This document shows positions 1,874-6,310 of a stretch of 6,310 nucleotides of DNA, in pieces. The position numbers and the translations under genes were made by a program. The stretch comes from Lentzea sp. Its GTDB lineage: Bacteria; Actinomycetota; Actinomycetes; Mycobacteriales; Pseudonocardiaceae. The stretch spans positions 1 through 6,310 of the forward strand of contig JASLAV010001278.1 in assembly GCA_030146905.1 (NCBI GenBank), written 5' to 3'. Under the pieces are notes generated by a model. That model searched no databases. It was not told the DNA's origin and saw nothing but the letters and a program-made list of their open reading frames with translations. Every line of letters starts with the position of its first letter. The stretch's first letter is position 1.

Positions 1874-3082
1874 CTACGGGAGCAGGCGCCGGACCACGGC
1901 GTCGGCGAGCAGGCGGCCGCGGTCGGTCAGCACGCAGCGGTCGTCCAGCGGCTCCAGCAGTCCGTCGGCGATCGCCTGCTTCGCCTCCTCGCGCCCGGCG
2001 TCGTCCAGCACGTCGAAGGGCAGGCCCTCGGCCAGCCTGATCTCCAGCAGCACCCGTTCCACGCGCTGGTCCTCCGCGGACAGCACCTCACGACCGGCGG
2101 CCGGCGACGAGCCGGAGGCGAGCAGCGACGAGTAGCGGGCCGGGTGCTTCACGTTCCAGAACCGCACGCCGCCCACGTGGCTGTGCGCGCCAGGGCCGAA
2201 GCCCCACCAGTCGGCGCCCTTCCAGTACAGGACGTTGTGCCGGCACTGCGCCTCGACCGAGGTGGCCCAGTTCGACACCTCGTACCAGGAGAACCCGGCG
2301 CCCGACAGCACGGAATCCACCATCTCGTAGGACGACGCGAGCACGTCGTCGTCCGGCATCGGCAGGTCGCCGCGGCGGATGCGGCGGGCGAGACCGGTGC
2401 CGTCCTCCACGATCAACGCGTAGGCGGACACGTGGTCGACGCCCGCGTCCAGCACGGCGTCGAGCGACGCGGCCAGGTCGGAGGGCCGCTCCCCCGGCGT
2501 GCCGTAGATCAGGTCGAGGTTCACGTGCTCGAAGCCGGCGACGCGGGCCTCACGCGCGGCGTCGACGGGGCGGCCCGGCGTGTGCTTGCGGTCGAGCACC
2601 TGCAGAACGTGCCGTGCCGCGGACTGCATGCCGAGCGACACGCGGGTGTAGCCGGCCGACCGGATGCCCTCGAAGAACTCCACGGACGTCGACTCGGGGT
2701 TCGACTCGGTCGTCACCTCGGCACCGGGGGCGAGGCCGAACGACTGGCGCACCGCGTCCAGCACGTCGGTCAGGCCGGAGGCGCCGAGCAGGGACGGGGT
2801 GCCGCCGCCGACGAACACGGTCTCGGCGGGCACGGGGGTTCCGAGCACCGAGGCGGCCAGGTCCAGCTCGCGGCGCAGGCCTTCCAGCCACGACTCCGGC
2901 GACGCGGAGGAGCCCAGCTCCCCCGGCGTGTAGGTGTTGAAGTCGCAGTAGCCGCAACGGGTCGCGCAGAACGGCACGTGCACGTAGACGCCGAACGGGC
3001 GGGTGCCGACACCGGCGAGTGAGGAAGCGGGGAGGGATCCGTCGGCGGGCGCGGGCTCGCCTTCGGGCAAAGCGGAGGGCAT
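1874..3082 (-). CDS. hemW: Heme chaperone HemW (radical SAM)
   Basis: A 402-residue cytoplasmic radical SAM protein. Characterised HemW proteins bind heme and deliver it to target proteins; older annotations call them oxygen-independent coproporphyrinogen III oxidase (HemN). The radical SAM cluster motif is C39-ATR-C43-GY-C46, inside YVHVPFCATRCGYCDFNTY. The residue two after C46 is Phe and not the fourth Cys typical of true HemN oxidases, which favours the chaperone. Other marks are GGGTPS (92-97), ESNPES (126-131), LDLIYGTPG (189-197), the HemW motif HNxxYW (HNVLYW, 282-287) and GFGPGAHS (294-301), followed by a C-terminal winged-helix-like tail (LTDRGRLLADAVV). I chose the ATG at 3082 (MPSALPEG). 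A GTG at 3133 would add 17 residues with no family support. The SD is weak. The gene is divergent from the sulfate-assimilation operon and convergent with the 75-residue gene. Confidence 0.95.
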   Translation of the reverse strand: MPSALPEGEPAPADGSLPASSLAGVGTRPFGVYVHVPFCATRCGYCDFNTYTPGELGSSASPESWLEGLRRELDLAASVLGTPVPAETVFVGGGTPSLLGASGLTDVLDAVRQSFGLAPGAEVTTESNPESTSVEFFEGIRSAGYTRVSLGMQSAARHVLQVLDRKHTPGRPVDAAREARVAGFEHVNLDLIYGTPGERPSDLAASLDAVLDAGVDHVSAYALIVEDGTGLARRIRRGDLPMPDDDVLASSYEMVDSVLSGAGFSWYEVSNWATSVEAQCRHNVLYWKGADWWGFGPGAHSHVGGVRFWNVKHPARYSSLLASGSSPAAGREVLSAEDQRVERVLLEIRLAEGLPFDVLDDAGREEAKQAIADGLLEPLDDRCVLTDRGRLLADAVVRRLLP

Positions 3083-3254
3083 GACGCTCAGTGTCCACCA
3101 CGGGCCCCGAACGGCGGTGCCCAGCCAGGACACATCTCTGTCGGTGACAGAAGTATCACTCTGCGAAACTGGTCGCGGATGTCAACTTTCCCAGCAAAAT
3201 CCCAGTATGCGGTTGGCGGTAGACCATGCTCTGGACGCCATGCACACTGAGGAC
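3083..3254. other. Divergent intergenic region between hemW and the sulfur operon leader
   Basis: No gene is supported here. It should hold the hemW promoter (minus strand) and the operon promoter (plus strand). A perfect palindrome TCTGTC-N3-GACAGA lies at 3137-3151, about 55 bases upstream of hemW, and could be an operator for an unknown regulator. On the minus strand a TTGACA (3185-3180) matches a -35 box, but no good -10 lies at 16-19 bases from it; GATACT at 3157-3152 is 22 bases away. Confidence 0.5.
3220..3248 (+). promoter_or_regulatory. Candidate promoter of the sulfur operon (leaderless for the leader ORF)
   Basis: TAGACC (3220-3225; 4 of 6 to TTGACA) is followed after 17 bases by CACACT (3243-3248; keeps the A2 and T6 positions of a -10 box). 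Transcription would start around 3255, exactly the A of the leader-peptide ATG. Leaderless start is plausible because the only SD-like sequence, GAGGA at 3249-3253, is one base from the ATG and too close to act as an SD. The boxes are poor by E. coli standards. Confidence 0.35.
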
Positions 3255-3341
3255 ATGCATTCGACTGGAGTCCGCCTCGTGGCCCGCCGCCACGTCGACT
3301 TCCGTCGTGTCTCCAGCGCGATGTGCCGTCGTTCGGCCTGA
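3255..3341 (+). CDS. Putative cysteine-responsive leader peptide, 28 aa
   Basis: A 28-codon ORF whose product contains RRHVDFRRVSSAMCRR (residues 11-26). It matches the pattern I know from short actinobacterial ORFs annotated as putative leader peptides ahead of sulfur-metabolism genes (RRHVD, then R..S, S, then C). It is basic, with a single Cys (codon TGC at 3324-3326) five codons before the TGA. Mycobacterial short Cys-coding ORFs upstream of sulfur operons act as cysteine-responsive attenuators; the same role here is inferred from family and position. The peptide itself probably has no function; its translation would sense charged tRNA-Cys. It lies 110 bases upstream of sirA on the same strand. 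A longer in-frame reading from 3003 crosses the hemW coding region and is not credible. Confidence 0.8.
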   Translation: MHSTGVRLVARRHVDFRRVSSAMCRRSA

Positions 3342-3451
3342 CCGCGCGCTGATTTGTTCCCGTCGGCGCCCGGCGCGCTGACGACGCCCCCACCACAAGC
3401 ACCTCCGGGCTCGCACGCGCACCGAGCGCCTCGAAACCCCGGAGGATGGCG
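3342..3451 (+). promoter_or_regulatory. sirA leader RNA with SD-sequestering pairing
   Basis: This 110-base untranslated stretch joins the leader ORF to sirA. CCTCCGGG (3402-3409) is a perfect 8-base complement of CCCGGAGG (3438-3445), which contains the sirA SD (GGAGG, 3441-3445). A nested stem GCTCG (3409-3413)/CGAGC (3423-3427) sits inside. An alternative partner for the anti-SD is GCCCGG (3368-3373), which pairs with CCGGGC (3405-3410) and would free the SD. A further stem joins the leader's last codons, CGTCGTT (3327-3333), to GACGACG (3380-3386). No U-run typical of a rho-independent terminator is present, so control of translation start is more likely than intrinsic termination. The pairings were found by eye, without energy calculation. 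Confidence 0.5.
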
Positions 3452-5131
3452 ATGGTCCCGCCGCAGACGTCACCGCGCGCCAAGCAGCGTCGCGGCGAGG
3501 GGCAGTGGGCGCTCGGCTACCGAGAGCCGCTGAACCCCAACGAGCGGAGCAAGAAGGACGACAACCCGCTCAACGTCCGCACCCGCATCGAGAACATCTA
3601 CGCCCACGGCGGTTTCGACTCCATCGACCCGGCCGACCTGCGCGGACGTTTCCGCTGGTACGGCCTGTACACGCAGCGCAAGCCCGGTATCGACGGCGGC
3701 CGCACGGCGACGCTGGAGCCGGAGGAGCTGGACGACGAGTTCTTCATGATGCGCGTCCGCAGCGACGGTGGTGCGCTGACGACCCATCAGCTCAAGGTCC
3801 TCGGTGAGATCTCGCAGACCTACGCCCGCGACACCGCCGACATCACCGACCGGCAGAACATCCAGTACCACTGGATCCGGATCGAGGACGTTCCCACGAT
3901 CTGGCAGAAGCTCGAAGCCGTCGGCCTGACGACGATGGAGGCGTGCGGCGACAGCCCGCGCGTCATCCTCGGCTCGCCGGTCGCCGGCATCTCCGAGGAC
4001 GAGGTCGTCGACGGCCAGCCGGCGATCGACACGATCCTCGAGCGCTACATCGGCGACCCGCGGTTCTCCAACCTGCCGCGCAAGTTCAAGACCGCCATCT
4101 CCGGCCTGCAGGACGTCGCGCACGAGATCCACGACATCGCGTTCGTCGGCGTGCACCACCCCGAGCACGGGCCCGGCTTCGACCTGTGGGTCGGTGGCGG
4201 CCTGTCCACGAACCCCATGCTGGGCAAGCGACTGGGCGCCTGGGTGCCGCTGGACGAGGTGCCGGACGTGTGGGAGGCGGTCATCAGCGTCTTCCGCGAC
4301 TACGGCTACCGCCGCCTGCGCCACCGCGCGCGCATCAAGTTCCTCGTCGCCGACTGGGGCCCGGAGAAGTTCCGCCAGGTCGTGGAGGACGAGTACCTCA
4401 AGCGCAAGATGATCGACGGCCCCGCGCCGGAGGTCCTCGACCAGCAGCTCGACCACATCGGCGTGAACAAGCAGAAGGACGGCCTGTTCTACGTCGGCGC
4501 CGCGCCGGTCGCGGGCAGGGTGTCCGGCTCGATCCTGGTCGAGGTCGCGAAGGTCGCCGAACGGGCCGGCTCCACGCGCGTCCGGTTCACGCCGCAGCAG
4601 AAGATCATCGTGCTGGACGTCGCCGAGTCCGAGGTGCCCACGCTCAAGAGCGACCTCGCCAAGCTCGGGCTGCAGGTCGACCCGTCGCCGTGGCGGCGCG
4701 GCATCATGGCGTGCACCGGCATCGAGTTCTGCAAGCTCGCGATCGTCGAGACCAAGGCCCGCGCGAACAACCTGGTCACGCAGCTCGAAGCGAACCTCAA
4801 GGACATCGTCGACGGCGTCACGGCGCCGATCACCGTGCACATCAACGGCTGCCCGAACTCCTGCGCCCGCATCCAGACCGCGGACATCGGCCTCAAGGGC
4901 CAGATCGTCACGGACGACCAGGGCAACCAGGTCGAGGGCTTCCAGGTGCACCTCGGCGGCGGTCTCGGCCTCGACGCCGGGTTCGGGCGCAAGCTGCGCG
5001 GCCACAAGGTCACCGCGGACGAGCTGCCCGAGTACGTCGAACGCGTGGTGCGCAACTTCGTCGCCCAGCGCGAAGAGGACGAGCGCTTCGCCCAGTGGGT
5101 CGCCCGTGCGGAAGAAGGTTCGCTGCGATGA
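3452..5131 (+). CDS. sirA: Assimilatory ferredoxin-sulfite reductase (siroheme, [4Fe-4S])
   Basis: This 559-residue enzyme reduces sulfite to sulfide with six electrons from ferredoxin. It has the same layout as M. tuberculosis SirA/NirA (Rv2391). The cofactor ligands form C421-x5-C427 (ACTGIEFCKLA) and C467-x3-C471 (NGCPNSCARIQ), binding the [4Fe-4S] cluster bridged to siroheme. R101 (MMRVR), R170 (GDSPR), K211 and K213 (LPRKFK) match the basic anion-binding residues. Y73 (GLYTQR) and C165 (EACGD) match the Tyr-Cys pair that is covalently linked in the M. tuberculosis structure. The ATG at 3452 is chosen because GGAGG (3441-3445) gives a 6-base spacing; the in-frame ATG at 3446 abuts the SD. 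The gene heads the operon with the zinc-ribbon gene, cysH and cysD. Some annotations say nitrite reductase; the cysH/cysD context argues for sulfite. Confidence 0.95.
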   Translation: MVPPQTSPRAKQRRGEGQWALGYREPLNPNERSKKDDNPLNVRTRIENIYAHGGFDSIDPADLRGRFRWYGLYTQRKPGIDGGRTATLEPEELDDEFFMMRVRSDGGALTTHQLKVLGEISQTYARDTADITDRQNIQYHWIRIEDVPTIWQKLEAVGLTTMEACGDSPRVILGSPVAGISEDEVVDGQPAIDTILERYIGDPRFSNLPRKFKTAISGLQDVAHEIHDIAFVGVHHPEHGPGFDLWVGGGLSTNPMLGKRLGAWVPLDEVPDVWEAVISVFRDYGYRRLRHRARIKFLVADWGPEKFRQVVEDEYLKRKMIDGPAPEVLDQQLDHIGVNKQKDGLFYVGAAPVAGRVSGSILVEVAKVAERAGSTRVRFTPQQKIIVLDVAESEVPTLKSDLAKLGLQVDPSPWRRGIMACTGIEFCKLAIVETKARANNLVTQLEANLKDIVDGVTAPITVHINGCPNSCARIQTADIGLKGQIVTDDQGNQVEGFQVHLGGGLGLDAGFGRKLRGHKVTADELPEYVERVVRNFVAQREEDERFAQWVARAEEGSLR

Positions 5132-5175
5132 GTGCCAGCCGACGTACGTGTCCCAGCGGAGGCTGCGATGACTGA
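5128..5175 (+). CDS. Possible 15-codon cysteine-containing ORF linking sirA and the zinc-ribbon gene
   Basis: ATG at 5128 overlaps the sirA stop as ATGA. The ORF encodes MSASRRTCPSGGCDD and ends with a TGA at 5173-5175, past the ATG (5168) of the next gene. An AAGG-type SD (within GAAGAAGG, 5111-5118) lies 9 bases upstream. Its reading frame covers the SD and start of the zinc-ribbon gene, so a ribosome on it would reach that start. It has two Cys codons. It could equally be chance, since it is very short and no family is known to me. Confidence 0.2.
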   Translation: MSASRRTCPSGGCDD

Positions 5176-5326
5176 GCGCGCGACGCCCTTCTACTGCCCC
5201 TACTGCGGTGACGAGGACCTCCGGCCGCAGGAGGAACCCAGCTACGCGTGGCTGTGCACCGGGTGCCGCCGCGTCTTCAAGGTCTCGTTCGTCGGGCTCA
5301 ACCTGCCGCAGGAGGTGAAGAAGTGA
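5168..5326 (+). CDS. Small zinc-ribbon protein of the sulfate-assimilation operon, 52 aa
   Basis: A 52-residue protein with two CxxC knuckles: C10-PY-C13 (FYCPYCGDED) and C30-TG-C33 (WLCTGCRRVFKV). They are spaced as in rubredoxin-like or zinc-ribbon folds, so a single Zn (or possibly Fe) site is expected. The tail is [14 protein letters not shown]. Function is unknown to me. A small protein of this kind sits between sulfite reductase and cysH in other actinomycetes as far as I recall, suggesting a role tied to SirA or CysH. I chose ATG 5168 because GGAGG (5158-5162) lies 5 bases upstream and the CxxC core follows at once; a GTG at 5132 would add 12 residues without a good SD. Its stop overlaps the cysH start (GTGA), so the two are translationally coupled. 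Confidence 0.85.
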   Translation: MTERATPFYCPYCGDEDLRPQEEPSYAWLCTGCRRVFKVSFVGLNLPQEVKK

Positions 5327-6018
5327 GCGATCTCAAGGAAGACCTCAGGATCGTCGCCGAAGCCGCGCAAGAGGAGCTGGCCGGCGCTTCCGCTGTCGAG
5401 GCCCTGGAGTGGACCGCGCGGACGTTCGGCGACAGCTACATCGTCGCGTCGAACATGCAGGACGCCGTGCTGATCGACCTCGCAGCCAAGGTGAAGCCGA
5501 ACTTCGACGTGCTTTTCCTGGAGACCGGTTACCACTTCCCGGAGACCATCGGCATGCGTGACGCCGTCGCGGTCGTCTACCCGGACGTGCGCATCGTGAA
5601 CGCCGCCGCCGAGCAGTCGGTCGAGGACCAGGAACGCGAGTTCGGCCTGCTGTACCAGTCGGACCCGGCCACGTGCTGCAACCTGCGCAAGGTCGTGCCG
5701 CTGCGCCGGGAGCTCGCGAAGTACGACGCGTGGGTCACCGGTGTGCGCCGGGTGGACGCGCCGACCAGGGCGAACACGCCGATCGTGCAGTGGGACGAGC
5801 GCAACGGCCTGGTGAAGGTCAACCCGATCGCGCCGTGGAGCGACGAGGAGTTCAACGCCTACATCCGCGAGAAGGGTGTCCTCGAGAACCTGTTGGTGCA
5901 GGAGGGATATCCCTCGATCGGCTGTCTGCCGTGCACCGCGAAGCCGTTGCCGGGGCAGGACGCCCGCAGCGGACGGTGGGCCGGTCAGTCGAAGACGGAA
6001 TGTGGGTTGCACGGATGA
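5323..6018 (+). CDS. cysH: Fe-S adenylyl-sulfate (APS) reductase, assimilatory
   Basis: A 231-residue cytoplasmic enzyme that reduces APS to sulfite and AMP using thioredoxin-type thiols. The start is GTG at 5323 ([10 protein letters not shown]), with GGAGGTGA (5311-5318) 4 bases upstream; the start overlaps the zinc-ribbon stop. The nucleotide-binding PP-loop-like region is ASNMQDAVL (42-50), followed by ETGYHFPET (67-75). C118-C119 ([11 protein letters not shown]) and C201-LP-C204 (SIGCLPCTA) are the four ligands of the [4Fe-4S] cluster that marks bacterial APS reductases; PAPS-specific CysH lacks them. C227 in the C-terminal ECGLHG is the catalytic nucleophile. Length is normal for the class. 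APS use fits the absence of cysC before cysD. It is followed by cysD with a 4-base overlap. Confidence 0.95.
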
Positions 6019-6310
6019 CTCTGGCTCTGGACACCCTGGGACGCCTCGAATCGGAGGCGATCCACATCTTCCGCGAGGTCGCTGGCGAGTTCGACCGGCC
6101 GGTGATCCTCTTCTCCGGCGGCAAGGACTCGACGCTGCTGCTGCACCTCGCGATCAAGGCGTTCTACCCGGCGCCGGTGCCGTTCCCGCTGCTGCACGTC
6201 GACACCGGGCACAACTTCGACGAGGTCATCGAGTTCCGCGACCGCGTCGTGGCACAGCACGGGCTGCGCCTGGAGGTCGCGAAGGTCCAGGACTGGATCG
6301 ACGACGGCCG
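6015..6310 (+). CDS. cysD: Sulfate adenylyltransferase subunit 2 (N-terminal part; runs off the right edge)
   Basis: The first 98 codons of the small, catalytic subunit of ATP sulfurylase, which with the GTPase CysN makes APS from sulfate and ATP. The N-terminus [19 protein letters not shown] is typical. The ATP-PPase PP-loop SGGKDS occupies residues 35-40 ([16 protein letters not shown]), followed by [19 protein letters not shown] (58-76), the conserved second block. The ATG at 6015 overlaps the cysH stop as ATGA, and no strong SD precedes it, so translation is probably coupled to cysH. cysN would be expected just to the right, outside the window. Confidence 0.95.

Follow-up and report, generated by a model that had tools for sequence, protein, structure and literature searches.

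Is the very short ORF that precedes the sulfur assimilation genes of a Lentzea species a genuine leader gene, and could it couple these genes to the supply of cysteine? In the window, which means the whole stretch of 6,310 nucleotides analyzed here, the ORF lies on the forward strand at 3255..3341 (ATG at 3255, TGA at 3339-3341), has 28 codons, and encodes the peptide MHSTGVRLVARRHVDFRRVSSAMCRRSA, as the preliminary description had given it. Its only Cys codon, the TGC at 3324..3326, is separated from the stop codon by four sense codons. As that description also noticed, the ORF is buried at the 3′ end of a longer, spurious in-frame ORF, which has 112 codons (3003-3341). It is fairly probable that the short ORF is a cysteine-responsive, ribosome-mediated attenuator of the sirA-cysH-cysD operon, and that its start makes it a leaderless leader. 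Such a leader would probably let this soil actinobacterium make more of the sulfur assimilation enzymes at cysteine shortage.

Upstream of the leader ORF, hemW occupies 1874-3133 on the reverse strand. Downstream, all on the forward strand, a gene for a sirA-type nitrite/sulfite reductase (3452..5131; NIR_SIR domains, with the NCBIfam equivalog cut-offs not reached) is followed by an ORF for a Cys-rich, zinc-ribbon-like product of 52 amino acids (5168..5326; weak zinc-ribbon matches only), by the phosphoadenylyl-sulfate reductase gene cysH (5323..6018), and by the 5′ part of cysD (6015..6310; named from its position and a PAPS_reduct domain). The sirA start at 3452 is likelier than that at 3446 by the spacing to the Shine-Dalgarno sequence. 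Apart from these genes, 1469-1639 contains an 80-nt inverted repeat that is imperfect (76% complementary) and has an 11-nt spacer. Its GGGCGTGTCCCGTGAGTC-type ends were seen by eye, and none of the 247 fetched loci contains this end sequence; the repeat is perhaps a small MITE-like element.

A conserved leader ORF and its upstream region

On comparative grounds, the 28-codon ORF is a real and conserved short leader gene. Its product matches the NCBIfam family NF042934 ("putative leader peptide") with 30.9 bits at a cut-off of 27 (E 1.5e-7), which agrees with the leader peptide signature claimed beforehand, and 15 of the 15 A1 leaders match the same family at E≤1. The score for NF042936, the Ms4527A family Cys-rich leader peptide, is also 30.9 bits, which is under the cut-off of 45. 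In the regions upstream of sirA, the leader motif was found in 80 of 81 loci (the window and 80 relatives), and the sole locus lacking it, L042, has just 137 nt of upstream sequence. The 80 sirA loci are the best 80 of at least 587 confirmed relatives, and close relatives are thus favored; among the matches listed, the five closest are from Lentzea species (94-97% identity). A narrower motif pattern missed ten loci, nine of which were recovered by wider patterns. Across the motif-bearing loci, 60 to 426 nt separate the leader stop from the point where the sirA match begins.

The residues R0, D4, R7, and C13 of the motif are invariant in all 80 sirA leaders; the search pattern required D4 and R7, so their invariance is shown only in that the pattern failed at none of the loci whose upstream sequence was long enough. 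Between Cys13 and the leader end, 1-5 residues remain in each of the 80. Thus, both the placement ahead of sirA-cysH-cysD and the conservation of RRHVD...C, as put forward in the preliminary description, were borne out by the comparison of upstream regions. Over all pairs of the 80 leaders, the leader frame has a mean pS of 0.537 and a mean pN of 0.167, whereas this relation is reversed in the other two frames (0.230/0.273 and 0.129/0.324). Since synonymous positions vary while the residues are kept, selection acts on the peptide itself. The ORF is real beyond chance because the match to NF042934 is above the cut-off, the motif precedes sirA in nearly all loci, and Cys13 is always present.

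Several other explanations of the ORF were rejected. A spurious ORF is ruled out by the NF042934 match, the conservation of the upstream motif, and the selection on the peptide. A leader start at the in-frame ATG 3240 is also ruled out; this ATG is absent from the relatives, and the promoter-like block described below speaks against it as well. A phage origin was dropped, as the 87-nt leader ORF has no phage match, and so was a plasmid origin, as the plasmid collection gave one short match, which lies within a sulfite reductase gene. No known RNA family reached its gathering threshold.

What precedes the start codon? The sirA leaders share a recurring block in which TNGAC is followed after 17 or 18 nt by a CACRCT-like hexamer and, after another 6 or 7 nt, by ATG or GTG. 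In the window, a possible -35 element, TAGACC, lies on the forward strand at 3220..3225, and a possible -10 element, CACACT, lies at 3243..3248, with a spacer of 17 nt between them and a gap of 6 nt to the ATG. TNGAC with a spacer of 17 or 18 nt is present in 61 of the 80 leaders. The gap of 6 or 7 nt occurs in 79 of 80, a figure obtained partly by construction because the choice of the start rewarded such a hexamer; the same block is visible when the upstream sequences are set out without being anchored on any start. A scan of 3150-3500 with the sigma-70 consensus gave no promoter-like site. The conserved spacing of the promoter-like block suggests a transcript on which the ORF is leaderless. 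Further upstream of the -35 element lies a conserved TCCCAGTATGCGGT block (3200..3213, forward strand). Its TCC..AT..GG pattern was found in 63 of the 80 sirA leaders, compared with 2.5% of letter-shuffled upstream regions. The block is perhaps a transcription factor site, which would add a second, regulator-based layer of control.

Related leaders, the presumed sensing codon, and the nascent chain

Leaders of this type are not confined to sirA. In a draw of 60 genomes from the family, every genome has a match, with a best E of at most 2e-7, and among the matches listed these genomes have at least 2-19 each at E≤0.05; three of the 60 were also in the sets picked earlier. Further leader copies were present in those two sets too (6 and 14 genomes), which had been picked for carrying the sirA leader. 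For 80 hand-picked matches, 68 downstream proteins were chosen by a GC3 rule, and 61 of them were searched against Pfam. This search gave nine SDF symporters, nine ABC permeases, eight luciferase-like monooxygenases, eight TauE exporters, six Cys/Met PLP enzymes, six and five NMT1-type binding proteins (two models), and two PALP proteins. The SsuC model matches eight of the nine permeases at E≤1e-20, and alkanesulfonate monooxygenase models match six of the eight monooxygenases. Some of the 61 proteins, such as those of the MFS, APH, and HpcH types, have no obvious link to sulfur. Similar downstream genes in another listing were recognized by eye only. The frequent occurrence of sulfur genes behind related leaders thus fits the sensing of cysteine or of sulfur supply.

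The codon at motif position 13 presumably does the sensing; the 80 sirA leaders have UGU here in 50 cases and UGC in 30, the window having UGC. Within the sirA genes, UGU makes up 16 and UGC 412 of 428 Cys codons, and the enrichment of UGU in the leaders (Fisher p ~5e-34) is indicative only, as the sequences are related. The preference depends on the group: position 13 is UGU in 6 of 36 loci of the Pseudonocardiaceae type (Pseudonocardia excluded), and in all 44 remaining loci (eight Pseudonocardia, 27 Streptomyces-type, and nine others). Of the 80 hand-picked related leaders, 64 do not belong to sirA, and 55 of these have UGU and 9 have UGC, compared with 8 UGU and 81 UGC in the downstream genes. 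The six sirA leaders in the related set have one UGU and five UGC, and the RRAVD subfamily has ten UGU and no UGC. A single tRNA is expected to read both UGU and UGC, and for this reason a slow codon accounts for the bias most simply. As to the variants, RRAVDxCRV replaces RRHVDxxRV in L192, L194-L197, L226, L242, and L244-L246.

The conserved peptide and the preference for UGU raise the question of whether these leaders sense through the codon only or with the nascent chain as well. A contribution of the nascent chain is the main rival of the codon-based attenuator. The nascent RRHVDxxRxxSAxC may contact the exit tunnel and delay the ribosome on the Cys codon; a single codon would then suffice as the sensor, and all downstream steps would be identical to those of the attenuator. 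Consistent with this, conservation is at the level of residues and not of codons, the spacing from D4 and R7 to C13 is fixed, 63 of the 80 sirA leaders have a single Cys only, and the peptide stays constant across families whose UTRs differ. A pure codon sensor is disfavored because it needs neither R0, D4, and R7 nor their spacing to C13, all of which are conserved. Against the arrest peptide, the stalling by a nascent chain is a supposition from sequence, the mycobacterial relatives have several Cys codons, as codon sensing alone would favor, and the UGU bias indicates decoding. I regard an arrest peptide as a tentative possibility. If the peptide matters, the leader would represent a ribosome-based sensor common to many actinomycete sulfur operons. 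It is conceivable, at a similarly low level of confidence, that RRHVDxxRxxSAxC is an actinobacterial composite sensor, which reports the supply of cysteinyl-tRNA to a whole set of sulfur operons and in which an arrest motif is tuned to a single Cys codon of slow decoding (in most cases UGU, which is otherwise rare), and that the polycysteine runs of mycobacteria are a local elaboration of it.

Competing helices between the leader stop and sirA

How might an event on the leader reach sirA? On the forward strand, segment z (3342..3359) directly follows the leader stop, and its residues 3346-3353 are able to base-pair with 3362-3369. Segment a (3361..3369) is the left arm of a hairpin and can pair with either z or segment b (3375..3383), the right arm. 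Farther downstream, the anti-Shine-Dalgarno segment e (CCTCCGGG, 3402..3409) pairs in the fold of the window with segment d (CCCGGAGG, 3438..3445), which contains the sirA Shine-Dalgarno sequence GGAGG (3441-3445). The unpaired probability of this GGAGG is 0.00, compared with a mean of 0.25 in shuffled sequences, and none of 20 shuffles was as low. The overall folds are unexceptional (z scores of -1.66 and -1.14).

The pairings were assessed by a swap test, in which native duplex energies are compared with those of species-swapped duplexes for fifteen segment pairs in 31 UTRs. These Pseudonocardiaceae UTRs were selected manually, by a recognizable hairpin block, among 68 non-redundant ones (of 130 found); outside the set lie Amycolatopsis (L013, L025, L027), Pseudonocardia, and others (L141, L147, L152, L164, L199). 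The presence of a:b was thus selected by the choice of UTRs, and the informative part is the comparison of native with swapped duplexes only. With n=31, z:a and a:b each gave p=5e-5, b:c gave p=0.0023, e:d gave p=0.023, and a:c gave p=0.033, while the remaining ten pairs were not significant. At a threshold of 0.05/15, z:a, a:b, and b:c pass, and e:d and a:c fail. In a control with reversed partners, significance was lost for z:a (p=0.37), a:b, and e:d. It was equally strong for b:c (p=0.0002), and b:c was dropped as a proven helix. Among 21 sequences with less than 70% identity, the values were 0.0002 for z:a, 0.0001 for a:b, 0.02 for b:c, and 0.14 for e:d. A first swap test with other segment borders (n=16) had given 0.003 for a:b, 0.005 for e:d, 0.036 for z:a, 0.12 for a:c, and 0.37 for b:c. 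The a:b hairpin shows compensatory changes, for example at the pair 3363-3381 (CG in 14, TA in 6, and GC in 1), where 23 of the 31 UTRs are paired. In total, 225 of 279 cells of the a:b hairpin are paired (0.81), the maximum in 500 column shuffles being 0.80. In the 31 chosen UTRs, z:a and a:b are therefore two mutually exclusive, coevolving helices adjoining the leader stop.

In the proposed mechanism, the leader would couple the sirA-cysH-cysD operon to the supply of cysteinyl-tRNA. When cysteine is short, the ribosome would wait at the Cys codon at 3324 with its front edge just before 3342, which would leave z free to pair with a. The footprint of about 13 nt ahead of the codon center is a value used in a passage of PMC13236596. 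When cysteine is plentiful, the ribosome would reach the stop at 3339-3341 and cover some ten bases at the start of z, and a would fold with b into the hairpin. The two helices are placed such that a ribosome at the stop, and not one at the Cys codon, would cover the first of them. The z:a state would favor an open sirA Shine-Dalgarno sequence, while the a:b state would favor one paired with 3402-3409. The sequences show the conserved peptide with its Cys, the conserved promoter-like block, the coevolution of z:a and a:b, and the local Shine-Dalgarno hairpin in the window; I infer the translation of the leader, the stalling, the ribosome footprint, the link from z:a and a:b to the Shine-Dalgarno sequence, and the response to cysteine.

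Folding calculations agree with this scheme in part. When the first 10 nt were masked in transcripts ending just past b, z:a fell from 0.38 to 0.03 and a:b rose from 0.32 to 0.66; a:b went up in 21 and down in none of the 31. The rise of a:b was 0.34 with the native z and 0.12 with a shuffled z, but z from other species gave 0.30, which is near the native value and speaks against the model. For equilibrium folding up to the sirA start in 42 of 80 sequences, the mean opening of the Shine-Dalgarno sequence was 0.225 with the ribosome at the Cys codon and 0.235 with it at the stop (0.277 in shuffles). In the 31 sequences, the values were 0.37 and 0.38. Neither set shows an opening that depends on the stall. 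A general sequestration by equilibrium folding is thus unsupported over the 42 of 80 sequences. With segment c included, a:b is rare in the 31 sequences (0.10 stalled and 0.04 at the stop), b:c is 0.61 at the stop versus 0.55 stalled (higher in ten and lower in three), and e:d is 0.26 stalled versus 0.23 at the stop. These modeled trends with segment c run opposite to the proposed model. To hold, the model would require the choice between folds to be made while the RNA is being transcribed.

The RNA part also differs among families. Streptomyces UTRs have a different hairpin, and in four Amycolatopsis loci (L016, L018, L019, L021) only 36 nt separate the leader stop from the sirA start, which leaves no room for z, a, and b. 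One RNA architecture for all families is ruled out by these cases, and the z/a/b switch is therefore not general. The peptide is constant across the loci, while the RNA output is variable.

Could transcription termination be the output instead? Termination by Rho or by other means within the C-rich stretch that follows the leader might act in place of, or besides, the sequestration of the Shine-Dalgarno sequence. From the leader stop to the Shine-Dalgarno sequence, C exceeds G in 80 of 80 loci. The mean skew is 0.257, compared with 0.094 at the sirA start, and it is higher than there in 70 of 80. No terminator-like site was found in 3150-3500, as fits a factor-dependent mechanism, and a part of PMC1262725 proposes Rho for mycobacterial cys leaders. 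However, the richest 50 nt begin 48 nt past the stop in the window (median of the 80, 20 nt), beyond the footprint of a stalled ribosome, and the mycobacterial case is called translation attenuation in a passage of PMC13236596. Termination of this kind is unlikely. Translational coupling, in which ribosomes that end the leader reinitiate at sirA, is very unlikely. The four short Amycolatopsis UTRs would suit it, but the distance in the window is 110 nt, and stalling would reduce sirA expression at cysteine limitation, which is the wrong direction for a biosynthetic operon. Most improbable is a small protein acting in trans, for although purifying selection on the peptide would fit one, the several divergent copies per genome, many of them just before sulfur genes and ending soon past the Cys, fit action in cis.

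Relation to known leaders

With the attenuator as the preferred reading, the window leader is of a kind that mycobacteria are already known to have and differs by its single Cys codon in a strongly conserved peptide. Canestrari et al. (2020, Mol Microbiol 114:93) reportedly described cysteine-responsive, polycysteine leaderless sORFs of M. smegmatis. The trp-type attenuators have alternating hairpins and an intrinsic terminator with a U tract. The mutually exclusive z:a and a:b helices beside the window leader stop resemble them; in contrast, the window has no terminator-like site, a 3:4 helix is not established, and the output is proposed to lie at the Shine-Dalgarno sequence.

The mycobacterial precedent to which the preliminary description appealed is stated in passages of PMC9031893 and PMC13236596, which report cysteine-responsive attenuation by leaderless polycysteine sORFs in M. 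smegmatis. Six such sORFs are predicted for M. tuberculosis in a part of PMC9094748, and conserved Cys-rich uORFs with ribosome occupancy appear in a part of PMC4633059. The window leader was likened to the M. smegmatis sORFs from its sequence: it shares the apparent leaderless start, a Cys near the stop, the place before sulfur genes, and a possible sequestration of the Shine-Dalgarno sequence. The cysteine response belongs to the M. smegmatis case, where a run of Cys codons stands in place of the single one. A similar relation holds for the candidate cys leaders without terminators that a passage of PMC1262725 predicts in Mycobacterium, P. acnes, and B. longum. They too are short ORFs that precede cys genes, have Cys codons close to the stop, and lack an evident terminator, but these codons come in runs. 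For S. lividans, the consulted passages of PMC8079986 describe eight leader peptides, none of which they term cysteine-dependent. In the open-access literature, no paper on an RRHVD-type motif was found.

Among the curated families, the window leader scores above the cut-off of NF042934 and is a short ORF before a cysteine/sulfur operon that is conserved in relatives. That annotation names the peptide and gives no mechanism. NF042936/Ms4527A has the same core, and the mycobacterial sirA leaders L045, L070, and L078 occupy the same position; in contrast, the window leader is under its cut-off and has one Cys rather than several. The locus shows concretely how a cysteine-type leader can be built outside the mycobacteria: one Cys codon, a conserved core of the peptide, perhaps a leaderless promoter, and RNA helices that compete. 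As a side observation, the leader of L190 has seven further Cys codons in the tail after the motif Cys, which makes a polycysteine run behind the motif.
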